From assembly GCF_036826855.1 (NCBI RefSeq), contig NZ_CP104578.1, positions 186,001-250,000 on the forward strand: a stretch of DNA of 64,000 bases, written 5' to 3'. A program made the position numbers and the translations under genes. A model generated the notes under the pieces. That model saw only the letters and a list, made by a program, of their open reading frames with translations. It was not told where the DNA came from and ran no database searches. The stretch comes from Streptomyces sp. SJL17-4 (lineage in GTDB: Bacteria > Actinomycetota > Actinomycetes > Streptomycetales > Streptomycetaceae). Positions 14,571 to 48,100 of the stretch are shown piece after piece (positions within the stretch are counted from its first letter, which is position 1; each line of letters begins with the position of its first letter).

Positions 14571-15683
14571 TCAACGGGATTCGGGTGGATACACCACGAG
14601 CAGGGCGGCGACGTCGTCGTCGAGGCTGCCCGATCCGTACGCGGTGAGGTCTTTGTGGAGGAGGGCCGGCACGTTCTCGGCGGGTTCACGCACCCAGCCG
14701 CGCAGGCGCAGTTCCAGCGGATAGAAGGTGCCGGTCCGGTCGCGGGTCTCGCTGACCCCGTCGGTGTAGAGGAGCAGCCGGTCCCCCGGGCCGAACGGCA
14801 CCTCCTCGATGTGGTGGTGGGAGTCGGCGAGGCCCGCGAGGTTCACGGGCAGCGAGGGGTCGGCGAAGCGCACGGCCTCGACCCCGCCGCCGCGCTGGAG
14901 CAGCGGGGTGGGGTGGCCGCAGCTGAGCAGCCGTGCGATGTCCTCGCCGTCGGGGAACTCCACGAGGACGACGGTGGCGAAGCGTTCGGCGGCGTCGGAG
15001 TCCGGATCCCAGGCGCCGTAGCGGGCGAGGCCCTCGTCGAGCCGGTCGGCGAGGGCGGCCAGGTCGGCCGCGTCGTTGACGGCGGCGCGGAAGGAGCCCA
15101 GGAGCACGGAGGCGGTCTCGACGGCGCCGAGTCCCTTGCCCTGGACGTCGCCGAGCATGACCCGTACGGCCCCGGGGACGCGTACCGCCTCGTAGAAGTC
15201 ACCGCCGATCCTGGCCTTGGCCGCGGCCGCCACGTACAGCAGGTGCAGGTCGAAGCGGCCGAGGTGGGTGGGGAGGGGGCGCAGCACGACGCGCTGGACG
15301 ACTTCGGCGACGGCGGTGAGTTCGCTCAGGTCCTGCTCGTAGCGGGTGCGGACCCGGCTGACCCAGGCAGCGGCGGCGGTGACGCCGACGATCACGATCA
15401 GGTTCGCGAGGAGTTCGGGCGCCGCGGCGAACTCGTCCCTGACGACGCCGAGCAGCAGTCGGGCGGCGACGGCGAGCAGCCCGATGACGATCGTCCCGGG
15501 CACGCTCCAGGTGACGGCGGCGAGCGCGGGTGCGGCGACGAGGAGCCGGTCGAAGCGCTCCTGCTCGGGGGTCATCAGATCGGCGACGAACGCCAGGGCC
15601 AGGACCAGGAAGGGCAGCGCACGACCGAGGTTGAACTGGGTGCGCTTCGGTGCGTCGGGGTGAACCCGCTGACCTGCCGGCAT
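14571..15683 (-). CDS. membrane-anchored SpoIIE PP2C-type phosphatase
   Basis: A 370-aa protein. About three hydrophobic helices (roughly residues 20-36, 46-80 and 92-110) anchor it in the membrane. A coiled-coil linker leads to a SpoIIE phosphatase domain with ARIGGDFYEAV, VMLGDVQGKGLGAVE, LLSCGHPTPLL and LLLYTDGVSETRD, and a C-terminal LDDDVAALLVV. All metal-ligating acidic residues are present. It starts directly after the MFS stop (TGAAATG), so it is probably translated by coupling as the third gene of a TetR-MFS-phosphatase operon. It likely acts on an anti-anti-sigma factor (STAS domain), but no partner is encoded here. Confidence 0.9.
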   Translation of the reverse strand: MPAGQRVHPDAPKRTQFNLGRALPFLVLALAFVADLMTPEQERFDRLLVAAPALAAVTWSVPGTIVIGLLAVAARLLLGVVRDEFAAAPELLANLIVIVGVTAAAAWVSRVRTRYEQDLSELTAVAEVVQRVVLRPLPTHLGRFDLHLLYVAAAAKARIGGDFYEAVRVPGAVRVMLGDVQGKGLGAVETASVLLGSFRAAVNDAADLAALADRLDEGLARYGAWDPDSDAAERFATVVLVEFPDGEDIARLLSCGHPTPLLQRGGGVEAVRFADPSLPVNLAGLADSHHHIEEVPFGPGDRLLLYTDGVSETRDRTGTFYPLELRLRGWVREPAENVPALLHKDLTAYGSGSLDDDVAALLVVYPPESR

Positions 15684-18921: not shown

Positions 18922-20343
18922 ATGCTCACTCATACCGCGAACGGCGATTCTCGCCTTTCCCTCTGGCTGCGCGTGCGCGAGTTCGCCGTGCCGCCCTCCA
19001 TGATCGAGACCGCTGCACTCCGGCGCACCGCCGGTGACTGGGCGGGCGCCTGTGCCGCCGCGGGCGTCGACGTCGATCTCGACCTGCGCTCCGCCGCCCA
19101 TGCGTACGGGCGGCAACTCGCCGCCCTGGTCAGGGCGGATCTCCGGCGACTCGCTCCCGACCTGCTGCGCTGGCACATGCCGCGGATCGCTCCCGACGGC
19201 GTCCTGCGCCCTGGGCTCACCGTCCCGCTGGCACGCTACGAAGTCTCGGGGGACGGCCCGGGGGGCGTCGCGGGGGACGACGACGTGAGGGACGACGACG
19301 TGGGGGACATCGCCTCCCACTCGGTGTACCTCGTGGTGCGGACCGCGCCCGCGTGGGCGGACGCCGGACAGCGGATGAGCCTCGCTCTGTGGGACGGTTC
19401 CCGTTCCGCGGGCGGTGAGCGCCGGCATCCGCATCCGCGCCCCAGTCGGCGGTACCGCCTGGATCTGCACCGCCATCTCTGGGACGCGGGGCGCAGCGAC
19501 GAGCTGCGGGTCCGCTCCGGGGCCGACGCGGGACCCTCCGTGGATCCGCCGTCGGCACACGAGGAGGTACCCGGCCGCGCCGTCGACCGCTGGGCGGCGG
19601 AGGCCGGGATCCTGCTCCGGGCCGAAGGGCGGACCTCCGGGCGTGTCCGCGTACGTCTGGGGGCCCGCCGGCAGGTGGTTCTCGACGTGCCGGCCGGCGG
19701 TGGACCGGCATCGGTGGCCGCTGTGACGTCCCCGTCGACATCGCGGACGCTGCCCACGCTGCCCGACGCCGCGACCTGGGTGCCGCCCGACCTGGAGTTG
19801 CTGCGCGCCGGTCTGATCGAGGCCGGGCGGCTGCATCCGCTGGTCGCCTCGGCGCTCGTACCCGACCACCGGCCCGCCGGACCGGCCCCGGTCGCGGACC
19901 CGCCCGGGCAGCCCCGACTGGTGGAGTGCCGGGGAGTCCGGCACCGGATCGGCCTCTCCGACGGCGTACTTGCTCCGCTCGACCACGGCCCCGCCGAGCT
20001 CCGGCGGGAGGAGCTCCTGGTCGCGCTGGGCGGGCCTCCCCTGCCCTGCCTCCAGGCCATCGACGAGGCCCATCGCCGTCCGGACTGCCTCACCGGTGTC
20101 CGCGAACGCCTGGACCACGGCGACACCGTCGGCGCGCTGGCCGTGGTCGAGGGCCTGCTCGGTCCCGGCGCCGCGCTGCGCAACGGCGCGCTGCGGGACG
20201 TACTCGAGTCGGCCGCCCGGCGGCGGATCGCGTACGGGCTCTACCGAGCGGACCTGTACGGCCCGGGACCGGGCCGTGTGCTGCCCGGGGACGCCCGCCC
20301 TCGACACCATCGCGCCCGCCCTCGCCACAGCTACGCCCTCTGA
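18922..20343 (+). CDS. uncharacterised protein of an AAA+/VWA three-gene unit
   Basis: A 473-aa protein with no domain I can name. It begins with a short region (LWLRVREFAVPPSMIETAAL) that recurs at the head of such proteins next to AAA+/VWA pairs, contains an acidic Asp-rich patch near residue 110, and ends in an Arg/His-rich tail. There is no signal peptide or membrane helix, so it is cytosolic. AAGGTGA precedes the ATG at 18922 at suitable distance; a GTG two codons earlier is possible. Its position immediately upstream of the ATPase suggests it is the substrate adaptor or third subunit. The last ~25 residues are compositionally odd and could be altered. Confidence 0.7.
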   Translation: MLTHTANGDSRLSLWLRVREFAVPPSMIETAALRRTAGDWAGACAAAGVDVDLDLRSAAHAYGRQLAALVRADLRRLAPDLLRWHMPRIAPDGVLRPGLTVPLARYEVSGDGPGGVAGDDDVRDDDVGDIASHSVYLVVRTAPAWADAGQRMSLALWDGSRSAGGERRHPHPRPSRRYRLDLHRHLWDAGRSDELRVRSGADAGPSVDPPSAHEEVPGRAVDRWAAEAGILLRAEGRTSGRVRVRLGARRQVVLDVPAGGGPASVAAVTSPSTSRTLPTLPDAATWVPPDLELLRAGLIEAGRLHPLVASALVPDHRPAGPAPVADPPGQPRLVECRGVRHRIGLSDGVLAPLDHGPAELRREELLVALGGPPLPCLQAIDEAHRRPDCLTGVRERLDHGDTVGALAVVEGLLGPGAALRNGALRDVLESAARRRIAYGLYRADLYGPGPGRVLPGDARPRHHRARPRHSYAL

Positions 20344-20373
20344 TCGAAGCCGCACCTGCCCTCTCACCGGCAT

Positions 20374-20440
20374 CGCCGGTGTCTCCCGATGCCGCCGGTG
20401 TCTCTCGAATGCGCCGGTGTCTCCCGACATCGCCGGTCCG
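20374..20440 (+). repeat. imperfect ~19-bp direct repeats between unknown gene and AAA+ gene
   Basis: CGCCGGTGTCTC(C/T)CGA occurs three times (starting at 20374, 20393 and 20412), with a shortened fourth copy CGCCGGTCCGA at 20431. The phasing is about 19 bp. It fills much of the 149-nt gap and contains no gene; a regulator array or a remnant of repeat expansion are the options. Confidence 0.7.
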
Positions 20441-20492
20441 AGGGGTCACGCCGGTACCGGCCCACTCACGACCAACCCACAGGTGATCACCC

Positions 20493-21749
20493 ATGCCCTT
20501 GAGCACCACCTCCCCCGCCCAGCTCGACGTCGCCGACGAACTGCTCGCCCTGCTGCGCGACTCCACGACCGAACCCCGCCCCGACGACCAGCTGGAGGCC
20601 CTGACCCTCGCGGTCGCCGCCGACCTGCCCGTACTCCTCTGGGGTGAGCCGGGGATCGGCAAGACGGCCGCGCTGACCCAGCTCGCCGAGTCTCTCGACC
20701 TCCCGCTGACGACGGTGATCGCCAGCGTGCACGAGCCGTCCGACTTCTCGGGGCTGCCCGTGATCGGCGACGACCCCGCCGAGCAGGGCGTCCCGATGGC
20801 CCCGCCGGACTGGGCGGTACGGCTCGTGAAGGCCGGTCGCGGGCTGCTGTTCCTCGACGAACTGTCCACCGCCCCACCGGCGGTGCAGGCGGCTCTGCTG
20901 CGTCTGGTCCTGGAGCGGCGGGTCGGCGCCCTGCGGCTGCCGTCCGGGGTGCGGATCGTGGCCGCCGCCAATCCGCGGGCCTCGGCGGCCGACGGCTGGG
21001 AGCTGAGCCCACCGCTGGCCAACCGTTTCGTCCACCTCCAGTGGACCCACGACCACGACGTCGTCGTCCGCGGCCTCGGCGGCATCTGGCCACGGGCGAC
21101 ACTGCCCCGGCTCGACCCGGAACGCCTGTCGCACGCCGTGGACTTCGCCCGGCGCGCGGTGTGCGGACTCCTCGCCACCCGCCCCACCCTCGTCCACCGG
21201 CTGCCCGACGGGGAAACCCGGCGGGGTGGCGCCTGGCCCTCGCCCCGCAGCTGGGAGATGAGCCTGCGCCTCATCGCCTTCGCCACCGCCGCCGGTTCCT
21301 CCCGTGAGGTGATCTCGCTCCTGGTCAGGGGCACCGTCGGGGACGGTCCGGGGCTCGAACTGCTCGCGAGCCTGGACCGGCTGGACCTCCCGGACCCCGA
21401 GGAGTTGCTCGCCGACCCGGCCGGCGCCGAGCTGCCACAGCGGGGTGATCTGCGCCAGGCCGCGCTCGACGCTGTGGTGGCCGCGGTCGGGGCGCGCCCC
21501 GAGAAGGCGCGCTGGGAGGCCGCCTGGGCTCTGCTCGCCAGGGCCGTGGAGACCGGCGCGCCGGATCTGGTCGTCGTCCCGGCGACCACGCTCGCCGCGC
21601 TTCGCCGTACGGAGTGGGACGTGCCACCCACCATCGAACGGCTCGCGGGGGCGGTCTCGATGTCCCGGCGTGCGGATGACGCGGCGACCCTGGTCGCGAG
21701 CGGCGCGCGACGCGTGAACGGGGCGGCGTCTGCCGCGGGCGCGCGATGA
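20493..21749 (+). CDS. AAA+ (MoxR-like) ATPase of the three-gene unit
   Basis: A 418-aa AAA+ ATPase. Walker A is GEPGIGKT (about residues 51-58) and Walker B LLFLDELST (about 118-126); sensor 1 is VAAANPRASAADG and the second-region arginine lies in LANRFVHLQW. A C-terminal helical region of about 200 residues extends beyond the AAA+ core. It differs from the MoxR protein at 8 kb, which is shorter and pairs with a CoxE-like protein. Its TGA overlaps the ATG of the VWA gene (ATGA), so the two proteins are made in equal amounts. It probably remodels or drives the VWA protein. Confidence 0.9.
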   Translation: MPLSTTSPAQLDVADELLALLRDSTTEPRPDDQLEALTLAVAADLPVLLWGEPGIGKTAALTQLAESLDLPLTTVIASVHEPSDFSGLPVIGDDPAEQGVPMAPPDWAVRLVKAGRGLLFLDELSTAPPAVQAALLRLVLERRVGALRLPSGVRIVAAANPRASAADGWELSPPLANRFVHLQWTHDHDVVVRGLGGIWPRATLPRLDPERLSHAVDFARRAVCGLLATRPTLVHRLPDGETRRGGAWPSPRSWEMSLRLIAFATAAGSSREVISLLVRGTVGDGPGLELLASLDRLDLPDPEELLADPAGAELPQRGDLRQAALDAVVAAVGARPEKARWEAAWALLARAVETGAPDLVVVPATTLAALRRTEWDVPPTIERLAGAVSMSRRADDAATLVASGARRVNGAASAAGAR

Positions 21750-23113
21750 GCACGGGTGCGGGTGCAGGCACCGGCGTGGGCGTGGGCACGGGCACGGGTG
21801 CGGGTGCGGGTGCGGGTGCAGGCACCGGCGTGGGCGTGGCCACGGGCACGGGTGCGGGTGCTGGTGCTGGTGCGGGTGCCGACGCCGGCACGCTCGACCT
21901 CGACAAGCTCTTCGCCGCCAGGCTGTTCGCCGTCCGGGCCCGGCCGTATCTGGCGACCGCGTTGTTCGCCCTGCACGTCGTCGAGTCCCGGCGGGTGCCG
22001 ACGATGGCCGTCGACCGGCACTGGCGGTGCTACGTCTCGCCGGTCTTCGTGAACCGGACCCCGGTGGAGGAGCTGGCCGGGGTGTGGGTCCACGAGGTGT
22101 CGCACCTCCTGCGCGACCACCACGGGCGCGGTGACCGGGTCGCCCGGCAGCGCGGTCTGACCGGCCCGGGCGCCAGGCTGCTGATGAACATCGCGGCGGA
22201 CTGCGAGATCAACGACGACGTGTTCGGGGACGGGCTGGTGAGCCCCGAGGGCGCGGTCACTCCGGACTCCCTCGGGCTCGCGTCCGGCGAGTTGATGGAG
22301 GACTACCTGCGCAGGATCGGACTCGGCTCCGGCATGCAGCACCTCGCCTGGCTGGACTGCGGCAGCGGTGCCGACGGGCTGGAACGCGAGTGGGATCTGG
22401 GGCCCGACGGCGCTGACGGCCTCAGCGAACAGCAGCAGGACGCCGTCCGGTTCCGGGTGGCACAGGCCGTCAAGGGCCGCCCCGGGAGCACGCCGAAGGG
22501 GTGGAAGCGGTGGGCGGAGGAGGTCTTCCACCCGCCGCAGCCGTGGCGGGACCTGCTGGGGGCGGCGGTCCGCTCGGCGGCCTCCGCGTCCGGCGCCGGC
22601 GAGGACTACTCGTACGGCCGGCCGTCGCGGCGCTCGGCGGGCGTGCCGGGTGCCGTGCTGCCGAGTCTCCGGCGCAGACCGCCCCGGGTCTCGGTGATCG
22701 TGGACACGTCCGGATCGGTGAGCGACGCGGAGCTCGGCGGCGCGCTCCTGGAGGTGGCCGCGATCTCCCGGGCCGTGGGCGGGCGCCGTGACCTGGTGAC
22801 GGTGATGTCGTGCGACGCGGCGGCCCGTACCGTCCATCCGTTGTGCCGTGCCGAGGGCATCCCGTTGGTGGGCGGCGGCGGTACGGATCTTCGTACGGGC
22901 TTCTCACGGGCGCTGCGGACGGTGCCACGGCCCGACGTCATCGTGGTCCTGACGGACGGCCAGACGCCCTGGCCGGACGACCGGCCGCCGTGCCGGACGG
23001 TGGTGGGCCTGTTCCCCCGTGACGGGTCGCGCGGCGGTTCGTGGATCGAGAACGATCCCGACTACGAGCCGGACACCCCGCCCGACTGGGCGCGCGTGGT
23101 GACGATCGGATAG
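21746..23113 (+). CDS. VWA-like domain protein with predicted metallopeptidase site (DUF2201-like)
   Basis: A 455-aa protein. Residues 1-48 are a low-complexity Gly/Ala/Thr/Val tract encoded by GGTGCG/GGCACG repeats. A putative metallopeptidase domain follows with the zinc motif HEVSHLLRDHH (HExxH, about residue 114) and a downstream acidic segment NIAADCEINDDVF typical of this family. The C-terminal ~130 residues form a VWA-like domain with the MIDAS motif DTSGSVSD and GGGGTDLRTGF. The fusion of HExxH and VWA matches DUF2201-type proteins associated with MoxR ATPases. It starts at an ATG overlapping the ATPase stop. The unit may act as an ATP-driven protease or chelatase-like machine; substrate unknown. 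Confidence 0.88.
   Translation: MSTGAGAGTGVGVGTGTGAGAGAGAGTGVGVATGTGAGAGAGAGADAGTLDLDKLFAARLFAVRARPYLATALFALHVVESRRVPTMAVDRHWRCYVSPVFVNRTPVEELAGVWVHEVSHLLRDHHGRGDRVARQRGLTGPGARLLMNIAADCEINDDVFGDGLVSPEGAVTPDSLGLASGELMEDYLRRIGLGSGMQHLAWLDCGSGADGLEREWDLGPDGADGLSEQQQDAVRFRVAQAVKGRPGSTPKGWKRWAEEVFHPPQPWRDLLGAAVRSAASASGAGEDYSYGRPSRRSAGVPGAVLPSLRRRPPRVSVIVDTSGSVSDAELGGALLEVAAISRAVGGRRDLVTVMSCDAAARTVHPLCRAEGIPLVGGGGTDLRTGFSRALRTVPRPDVIVVLTDGQTPWPDDRPPCRTVVGLFPRDGSRGGSWIENDPDYEPDTPPDWARVVTIG
21752..21890 (+). repeat. GC-rich hexamer repeat encoding the N-terminal GA/GT tract
   Basis: Hexamers such as GGTGCG and GGCACG are repeated, and a 54-bp block beginning CAGGCACCGG recurs at 21765 and 21819 with one main difference. 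It encodes the first ~48 residues of the VWA protein. Unit lengths are multiples of 3. Confidence 0.85.
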
Positions 23114-23123
23114 ACGATCGTGA

Positions 23124-23235
23124 GCGATGCGGGTTCGGTGCGGGTTCGGTGCGATGCGGCTTCGGGTGCGTGCGCGGTGCGGTACGGCTTCGGGTGCCGG
23201 CACGGTGCGGTGCGGTGCGCTGCGGCGGGTGCGCG
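23124..23235 (+). repeat. short GCGGTTCGGGTGC-type repeats upstream of the amidohydrolase
   Basis: The gap after the VWA gene consists of reiterated variants such as GCGGGTTCGGT and ACGGCTTCGGGTGC. No reading frame, hairpin or promoter is convincing. It looks like expanded simple sequence. Confidence 0.5.
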
Positions 23236-45126: not shown

Positions 45127-48100
45127 GGCTGGTCTCCTTCGGGGCGGGGGTCGTCGAGGGGGGTCGTGCCGTGGCCGGGTTCGTGACCGGTGCCGGTGCC
45201 GAGGGGGCGTCTGCTGCCGGGGGCCGCGCCGCCGCCCCGCTGCCAGCCGTCGCGGTAGGCCGACATCCGGTCCCGGACCACTTCCGGGGTGCGGGCGTCC
45301 GTGCCCGGCTCGGGCGGCACGAACACCGGTGCCGAGGCGGGCGCTTCGCGCAGCTGCGGGACCAGGCTCGCCTGCCGTACCCGGCGCGGCAGCTCGCCCT
45401 CCGCGTCGTCGCCGTGTCCGGCGTGACGGGCGGCACCCGTGGGACCTGCGGGACTCGCGGGCGTGCCGGGCCGCTGTTCCCGGGCGGGCGGCGGTACGGA
45501 GGAACCGCGACGGCGCAGTTCGGTGACCCCGGCGGGCGGGGGTCCTGGCTCCGCGGGCGGCGCGAGCGCGGGAACGACGGTCGGACGCGGAAGGGGCTGC
45601 GGGCGCGAGGACGCGGGAGCCTGGGGCGGGGCCGGCGGTCGGGAACCGCTCGTCTCCCTGGGCAGGATTCCGGGCCTCGTACCGCCCGGCGGCTGAGGGG
45701 CGGTCCTGCGGGGCGTCGGAACGGGCCCGGCGGGGGCGCCTCCCCCGAGGGCGGGGGCGGGCGGACCGGCCTGCGCCGGCGGACGGGACACCTGGGGACG
45801 GCCGAAGCGGCGGGCCTCGGCGCGCTGCGCCTCCTCGCGTTCGCGTGCGGCGCGTGCGTCGTCCGTACGCCGGTCGGCGCCGAGGCGGTGGGAGCCGACA
45901 TCGGCGCCGGACCGATCGACGCCGAACCCATCAGCGCCGGACCCGTCGGCGCCGGACCGGTCACCCGTCGTCCGGTCGTCGTGGCTCTGCCGGTGATCCG
46001 CACCCGGCTCTCCCCTGCCGGTGGCGGGCGTACGGGGGTCGCGCACCTGCGGGGTTCCGGCATGGGGTGTGTCGTTTCCGTGGCCGGTCGCCCCCGCGCC
46101 TCGGCCCGGGGGCAGGGCGCCCTGGAGGAGATCGGTCGGGAGCAGCACGACGGCCGTGGTGCCGCCGTACGGGGAGGTCCGCAGCTGGACCTTGATGTCG
46201 TGGCGGGAGGAGAGCCTGCTGACGACGAAGAGGCCGAGCCGGTCGCTGTCGAAGAGGTCGAGCGCCTCCGACTGGGAGATGCGGGCGTTGGCCTCGGCGA
46301 GGGTCTCCTTGCCCATGCCGAGGCCCCGGTCCTCGATCTCCAGGGCGTACCCGTTGCCGACGGGCTCGCCGCTGACCCGGACCTTGGTGTGGGGCGGGGA
46401 GAACTGGGCCGCGTTCTCGATGAGTTCGGCCAGGAGATGGGTGAGGTCGGCGACGGCTCCGCCGACCACGGCCGTCTCGGGGAGTCGGCGCACCTCCACG
46501 CGCGCGTAGTCCTCGATTTCGGAGACGGCGGCGCGGACGACGTTGGTGAGGGGGACGGGCATCCGCCAGGCGCGGCCGGGGGCGGCGCCCGAGAGGATGA
46601 TGAGACTCTCGGCGTGGCGGCGCATCCGGGTGGTGAGGTGGTCGAGCCGGAAGAGGTCGCCGAGTTCGTTGGGGTCGTCGGCGCGCCGCTCCATGCTGTC
46701 CAGGAGGTTGAGCTGGCGGTGGACGAGGACCTGGCTGCGCCGGGCGAGGTTGACGAAGACACCGGAAATGCCGCTGGCGAGTTCGGCGCGTTCGACGGCG
46801 GCGGAGAGGGCCGCGCGGTGGACGGTGGTGAGGGCCTCGCCGACCTGGCCGATCTCGTCCTGGGAGACGGGGCCGGGCGGGGCCTCGGCCTCGACGTCGA
46901 TCTCCTCCCCGGCGCGCAGCCGGCGCATGGCGGCGGGGAGTTTGCCGCGTGCGATGCCGAGGGCGGTGTTGCGGAGGCTGACGAGTTCGACCACCAGACC
47001 GCGGCCGATCCGGACGGAGATGACGAGGGAGGCGGCGACAGCCGCCAGGCCGAGGATCACCGCCGCGCCGCCCGCGGTGAGGACACCGCCGGCGAAGGGG
47101 TCGGAGCGTTCGCCCGCGGCGGTGCGGGCGTCGGTCTCGATCGCGGTGAGTCCGCTCCGTACGGCCGTGAGGGTGTCGTCCCAGTCGGCGCTGGAGACCG
47201 CCTGGGCGGCGGGGCGGCCGGGGCTCGCGGCGCGGATCAGGTCCTCGGCCCTTGTGAGCCGTGCGTGGTCTCCGCCGGCGGCGAGCCGGTTCCACGCGGC
47301 GCGTTCGGCGGCGGGCAGGTCCGCGGTGGCGGAGGCGGTGAGGGTGCGCCGGGTCTCGACGGCGCCGGAGAAGGCGCGGAGCCCCTCCTCCGTGAACCGG
47401 CCGGTGAGGTGGGCGGCGGTGAGGAGGGCGTCCTCGCGGGACAGCATCTCGCCGGCCCGGCCGAATTCCAGGAGTACGCGCGCGTCGGAGCCCTGCTGGG
47501 TGTCCTGGATGCCGGTGAGGGCGCCGCCGACGGCGAACGCGGCGGAGACCGCCGCGGTGTACTCCTCGTACACCTGGATCCCGTCGGCGCGCCCGTCGGT
47601 GGCGGCGGTACGGAGCAGGGCGAGGCCCGCGACCTTGCCGACGAACTCGCTGACCCGCTGCCCGACGTCGCCGGGGAGGTCCCCGGTGTCGCCGACGGTG
47701 TGCGTGTCGTTCAGGCGGAGGCGGTCGACGGCCTCGTCCGTGCGGCGCATCCGGTCCTTGAGCTCGGCGGCCCGGGTGGCGCCGGGGGCCGCGATCTGCC
47801 GTACGGCGGCGCGCCGTTCGGCCTGGAGGGCGGCGAGTGCGGCCGTCACGGGCTCGCGGATCTCGGCGTCGACGCGCTGGAGCTGGCGGAGCCGGGCGAC
47901 GTCCTGGGCGGTGGTGACGGTGGCGAAACCCCACAGCGCGAGGAGCGACACGACCGGGACCATCAGCAGCGAGACGATCTTGGCGCGGACGGTACGGGGG
48001 CGCAGGCCGCGACGTGGGGCGGTGGGAGGCGCGAACGGCGCGGCGGTGACGGCGTTGCCGGTGGTGCCGATGCGTCCGGTGGTGGCCGTGTGAGCGGTGC

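Follow-up and report, generated by a model that had tools for sequence, protein, structure and literature searches.

The window analyzed in this study is a stretch of 64,000 nucleotides from Streptomyces sp. SJL17-4, which corresponds to positions 186001-250000 of a source genome consisting of one 8.54-Mb contig. Three genes on the + strand occupy 18922-23113 of the window and encode, in order, a protein without an assigned family (P1), an AAA+ ATPase, and a VWA protein (Table 1). The ATPase and VWA genes share an ATGA overlap at 21746-21749, the gap between the P1 and ATPase genes is 149 bp, and the next gene after the VWA gene encodes an M20-type peptidase. The earlier note had described a three-gene unit with these proteins, the ATGA overlap, the GEPGIGKT, HEVSHLLRDHH and MIDAS motifs, and the MoxR-like and DUF2201/VWA families. 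The analysis bore this out: the coordinates and lengths were exact, the overlap was present, all the motifs were located in the predicted proteins, and the Pfam scores of both families were over the cut-off.

Table 1. Features of the three-gene locus (window coordinates; residues of the VWA protein in 407-residue numbering).
Feature	Position	Strand	Remarks
P1 ORF	18916-20343	+	ATG at 18922 is the likeliest start, behind AAGGTGAG; 473 aa
P1 N-terminal conserved helical block (GDWxGAC...LAPDLLRWHxPR)	18976-19185	+	Columns of alignments A1 and A3 often invariant or nearly so; helices in the predicted model
P1 C-H-H-C module (C336, H341, H355, C376)	19915-20115	+	Four residues invariant
P1 ankyrin-like C-terminal segment	20110-20241	+	Aligns with the beginning of the ankyrin repeats found in long P1 proteins
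MoxR-type AAA+ ATPase	20493-21749	+	418 aa; Pfam AAA_5 and AAA_3 above cut-off
Walker A GEPGIGKT	20643-20666	+	
Walker B LLFLDE	20844-20861	+	
DUF2201 protein, HExxH (M48-like) domain and VWA domain	21746-23113	+	455 aa
Low-complexity N-terminal tail (Gly/Ala/Thr/Val) of VWA protein	21746-21889	+	
HEVSH motif (H68, E69, H72)	22091-22105	+	HEVSHLLRDHH starts at 22091
D104 and E106, candidate third metal ligands	22199-22207	+	D104 invariant in 28/28
MIDAS DTSGS	22703-22717	+	D272, T273, S274 and S276 invariant in 28/28; with T332/D333 and D356

MoxR-VWA pairs are widespread remodelling machines, and how they choose their targets is poorly known. The ATPase of the window matched the Pfam families AAA_5 (34.9 bits against a cut-off of 22, E 1.8e-8) and AAA_3 (27.6 bits against 27), and these matches, the Walker A and Walker B motifs and the VWA partner place it in the MoxR clade. 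Its solved relatives include midasin and NorQ. The VWA protein matched DUF2201_N, a "putative metallopeptidase" family (PF13203, 97.6 bits against a cut-off of 23.2, E 1.3e-27), and the VWA-like DUF2201 family (PF09967, 53.4 bits against 26.4, E 3.5e-14). Pfam gave no family C-terminal to the VWA-like match (315-420 of 455 aa), and no effector domain was found there. The TM0930 subfamily of MoxR is linked to DUF2201, and PF13203 also had matches in Thermotoga maritima. Over the HExxH region, the VWA profile weakly matched an M48 peptidase (E 0.0032). In the predicted model, H68, E69, and H72 lie on a confident helix (59-74), and D104 and E106 lie on a helix at 93-111. A structure search with the VWA protein was filled by its VWA domain, and the VWA domain of NorD was among the solved relatives. 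Judged by the M48 match and the predicted model, the HExxH domain is plausibly a metallopeptidase.

P1 had no family match in Pfam, NCBIfam or PADLOC, and even at E<=1 the Pfam search returned 0 families. The predicted model of P1 (pLDDT 83.2, pTM 0.81), searched as a whole against the PDB, gave no clear match, and a divergent domain could still be present. P1 of the window matched no ankyrin family, despite the short stretch that aligns with ankyrin repeats. Among 8000 scored candidates, 3005 were homologues of P1 at E<=0.001. The nearest of the matches listed was from Streptomyces sp. YH02 (95% identity), and nearly all of the 120 family members listed were unnamed or called "hypothetical protein". 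The earlier impression of a "conserved-looking" protein was correct, although P1 evolves the fastest of the three: its mean distance was 0.365, against 0.200 and 0.242 for the other two proteins (26 loci used, with exclusion of four of the 41 loci described below whose gene calls were truncated). Some regions of P1 vary strongly among relatives.

In 41 genomes, comprising the window's own genome and 40 relatives, P1 was found in 24 and the VWA gene in 25. At the clear VWA places in these genomes, which omit partial or weak rows of two genomes (G028 and G005), P1 lay within 6 kb at 21/24. P1 and the VWA gene were on different contigs in G035 and G036, and G037 matched P1 in part and the VWA gene not at all. 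In G012 (L119, L120), P1 was located about 38 kb from the ATPase-VWA pair on the opposite strand, a layout that looks as if an inversion had ended between the P1 and ATPase genes. In a broader set of 296 actinomycete genomes, 32 contained P1 and 43 matched the VWA profile. At the VWA matches with E<=1e-130, the coordinates placed P1 alongside in 33/33; among them, P1 was split across two contigs in G077 and was a 171-aa remnant in G094. The separation in G012 and the remnant in G094 indicate that adjacency of P1 is not always needed. When 41 loci (the window and 40 others, all picked for carrying P1) were compared gene by gene, order and strand were identical at 41/41. The P1 and ATPase genes overlapped by 4 bp in six of these loci (L143, L144, L146, L148, L152, and L158). 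The flanks of the 41 loci mostly differed, and shared flanks were confined to a few groups of relatives. Among 72,556 plasmid records, P1 was found in 9, and both records that were opened carry all three genes. Because 3005 of the 8000 candidates match P1 and the gene order is kept at 41/41 loci, neither P1 nor the trio is a product of chance.

P1, the ATPase, and the VWA protein very probably form one functional unit. The earlier note had proposed a cytosolic, ATP-driven machine with the unknown protein as its putative adaptor; of this, the co-occurrence at 33/33 and 41/41 supports a single unit to which the unknown protein belongs as a dedicated third part. The co-occurrence across actinobacteria that the earlier note had put forward as a check held in part: P1 was present in 33/33 cases in the close branch, whereas the distant actinobacterial pairs lacked a full P1 and, where neighbours were seen, had other ones.

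One branch of the family has a fourth gene. A leucine-rich-repeat (LRR) gene was directly upstream of P1 at 7/41 loci and also at L121. P1 in these seven loci was 540-665 aa long, and both of the long P1 proteins scanned had C-terminal ankyrin repeats (Pfam), with similar tails in others. A search starting from the LRR protein, in which 80 of the 169 loci found were kept, showed the order LRR-P1-AAA-VWA at 73/80 loci. As for the rest, the last gene or genes of the set were missing in short contig stretches at L233, L274, L279, and L283, L269 had only the LRR and P1 genes, and at L260 and L272 (Planotetraspora) the LRR gene stood alone behind a dehydrogenase-like gene, and P1, the ATPase and the VWA gene were all missing. 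In 22/79 LRR loci (L204-L283), the LRR gene was preceded by a gene from one and the same cluster; the member scanned (L260:5541-7004) was a short-chain dehydrogenase (PF00106) whose N-terminal stretch is zinc-ribbon-like. Tandem P1 pairs were seen before the ATPase gene at L121, L239, L255, L266, and L273.

More distant relatives have other third parts. In fifteen distant DUF2201 systems (E 1e-60 to 1e-93), no full P1 was found in the stretches examined, two of which (L116 and the 3.1-kb L107) stop at a contig edge. The ATPase adjoined the VWA gene in 14/15 of these systems. Several had other neighbours: a divergent gene pair (Y and Z) or, downstream, either a repeat protein (X) or a small protein. 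Protein X (L109, L110, L111, and L113) carries WxxxGFTxxEA-type repeats and lies downstream of a VWA protein without the HExxH glutamate; the one member scanned had no Pfam family. Of the weaker VWA rows in the 296 genomes, a second Streptomyces MoxR-DUF2201 pair (L197-L201) was examined. As in the trio, its MoxR gene adjoins that of the DUF2201 protein; unlike the trio, it has no P1 and a VWA protein of about 600 aa. This pair has a common neighbourhood, behind a 684-707-aa protein. HExxH was kept in 3/3 of its VWA proteins scored, and two HxxxH motifs were also seen in these three.

In two sets of P1-linked VWA proteins, the HExxH glutamate was retained in 46/46 and 73/73, respectively. Among the P1-free relatives, it was lost in 15 of the 18 that could be scored and kept in L103, L114, and L192. 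The sister systems without the glutamate retained both histidines and D104. P1 and the glutamate are not strictly tied, because these three P1-free relatives, the second Streptomyces pair and two phage proteins also keep it. In the sister lineage, by contrast, most members no longer have this catalytic glutamate. The two lineages thus offer a natural comparison, through which one could ask directly whether the P1-linked branch cuts what its sister may only remodel.

The C-H-H-C module of P1 occurs beyond P1. C336, H341, H355, and C376 were invariant across 60 P1 sequences and 12 module sequences, and this invariance of four potential ligands suggests a putative metal site. Protein Z has one 60-residue module in common with P1 (hhalign probability 95.5%), and the small downstream protein of the distant systems has the same module as P1 and Z. 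In the 296 genomes, 39 of 40 module matches adjoined MoxR/DUF2201 pairs, 8 of these 39 being rows of the module profile itself; the lone match elsewhere is probably due to chance. In three systems outside the class (L202, L203, and L189), the VWA gene is likewise followed immediately by the module. Systems in which the HExxH glutamate is gone keep the module too, so the machine evidently can persist without peptidase chemistry. The module occurs in third proteins of different build, which suits a role in docking better than one in catalysis.

The trio resembles the published MoxR-vWA ternary systems and was assigned to none of them, TERNS3 being compared by description only. The accessible part of Kaur et al. 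(2020, PMC7159879) describes VMAP, iSTAND, FtsH, and beta-propeller systems as MoxR-vWA ternary conflict systems. Like the trio, they have a MoxR ATPase, a vWA protein and a dedicated third protein and occur in hyphal actinomycetes, and the VMAP systems have the order third component-MoxR-vWA found for the trio. Unlike in the systems of that text, the vWA protein of the trio carries an HExxH domain in its N-terminal part and lacks C-terminal effectors, and P1 matches no Pfam family; metallopeptidases appear there only as rare effector domains or separate peptide-processing genes. No VMAP-type effector was found, as the vWA protein has no domain beyond the VWA-like match. A beta-propeller system was rejected, with the ATPase at 17.1 bits for the bpMoxR type (cut-off 27) and no propeller family, and so was an FtsH system, in which the third component has two FtsH-type AAA+ domains whereas P1 has no AAA family. 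In the iSTAND comparison, P1 had no sequence family and its whole model no clear PDB match, and a divergent fold could escape both. VMAP models are present in Pfam, and VMAPs diverge fast. The iSTAND2/TERNS3 systems, as outlined in part of PMC8195603, also encode a conserved third component 5-prime of MoxR and vWA and include actinobacterial hosts. Their effectors are on a separate vWA-L gene, unlike in the trio, which is followed by the M20-type peptidase gene.

Two-protein systems are also comparable. Jumbo phages have the same core, in which MoxR is paired with a vWA protein that bears a metallopeptidase at its N-terminus; the available text of PMC7824862 gives virion assembly as the proposed role. 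HExxH and D104 were kept in both of the jumbo-phage proteins examined, and P1 had no match in the phage collection. The nitric oxide reductase chaperones NorQ/NorD likewise combine a MoxR ring with a VWA partner; unlike the trio, in the sections of PMC9976466 at hand, they have no P1-like protein and no HExxH domain described on NorD. The VWA domain is proposed there to plug the ring and the MIDAS to contact the target. Among the paper listings and text passages covered in the open-licence PMC literature, no description of the trio was found; one may exist in a supplement.

We tentatively favor, at somewhat less than an even chance, the reading of the trio as a three-part MoxR-VWA machine that uses ATP to remodel a target, has a metallopeptidase of its own and includes P1 as the dedicated third subunit. 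We infer its ring, docking, recognition, cleavage, and target as follows. By analogy with MoxR relatives, the AAA+ protein would form a ring. The VWA domain, as in NorQ/NorD, would dock on this ring, and the MIDAS would grip a peptide or partner. P1, docking via its C-H-H-C module, would select the target or set a switch, and in the longer branch it would be extended by ankyrin repeats and an LRR partner. The ring and VWA domain would then remodel the target, which the HExxH domain may cut. What the computations show is the shared inheritance and gene order, the family assignments, the conserved motifs, the tie of the C-H-H-C module to these systems, and the kept HExxH glutamate of P1-linked proteins. 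Across a whole lineage, one new protein family accompanies a MoxR-VWA pair, and a role for the trio would give a function to this large family, whose listed members nearly all lack an informative name. It is a doubtful possibility that the trio represents a new MoxR-VWA ternary class, marked out by a third component whose C-H-H-C module would be a zinc module of a new kind. Such a machine would couple ATP-driven remodelling to a metallopeptidase within it, and its LRR/ankyrin branch would be a recognition-triggered protease. If true, this branch would be a bacterial parallel to LRR-gated protease activation.

The trio could instead be a non-proteolytic maturation chaperone, in which P1 is the client that the MoxR ring and its VWA partner would remodel or load with metal, in the way that NorQ/NorD treat nitric oxide reductase, and the HExxH site is a relic or serves in metal handling. 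Client maturation is described for several characterised MoxR-VWA pairs in the parts of PMC7159879 and PMC9976466 available, and the four invariant potential ligands of P1 and the histidines and D104 kept by the glutamate-less sister systems fit this explanation. We consider it unlikely, however, given that every P1-linked protein examined keeps the glutamate, that P1 has no enzyme family and varies strongly in parts, and that the module sits in differently built third proteins.

An anti-invader conflict system similar to the VMAP ternary systems is, in our view, unlikely as well. Here, P1, joined by LRR/ankyrin parts in one branch, would sense an invader and the ATPase would release the peptidase effector. 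The shared gene order (accessible part of PMC7159879), the patchy presence (24/41 genomes) with mostly differing flanks, the plasmid copies, and the fast evolution of the third component agree with such a role, as do the LRR and ankyrin repeats, which are of a kind often used for recognition. In contrast, no effector domain follows the VWA domain, and the strong conservation of the LRR protein, at 82% mean column identity in 8 loci, is not that of a hypervariable sensor. None of the three trio proteins had a full-length PADLOC match, and the ATPase had only weak partial ones (best 1.9e-6). Few of 120 flanking proteins (32/41 loci) were defence-like, a count made without a background set: each PADLOC family at E<=1e-20, mad2, mad3, and mad6 included, matched one or two of them. 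That an ordinary MoxR-DUF2201 pair merely neighbours an unrelated P1, as the wide P1-AAA gap beside the AAA-VWA overlap and the separation in G012 might suggest, is very improbable in view of the co-occurrence (33/33, 41/41, and 73/80) and the 4-bp P1-ATPase overlap at 6/41 loci.

Several minor features were seen in the window. ARAGORN reported a tRNA-like element with a four-base anticodon at 45651-45740, which is probably spurious because the Rfam scan of the window gave zero tRNA. A SpoIIE-type phosphatase gene is close to the trio on the minus strand (14571-15683). The low-complexity tail of the VWA protein is encoded by a 54-bp tandem repeat (21753-21873), and tandem-repeat arrays also lie before the ATPase gene (20362-20437) and after the VWA gene (23124-23219).
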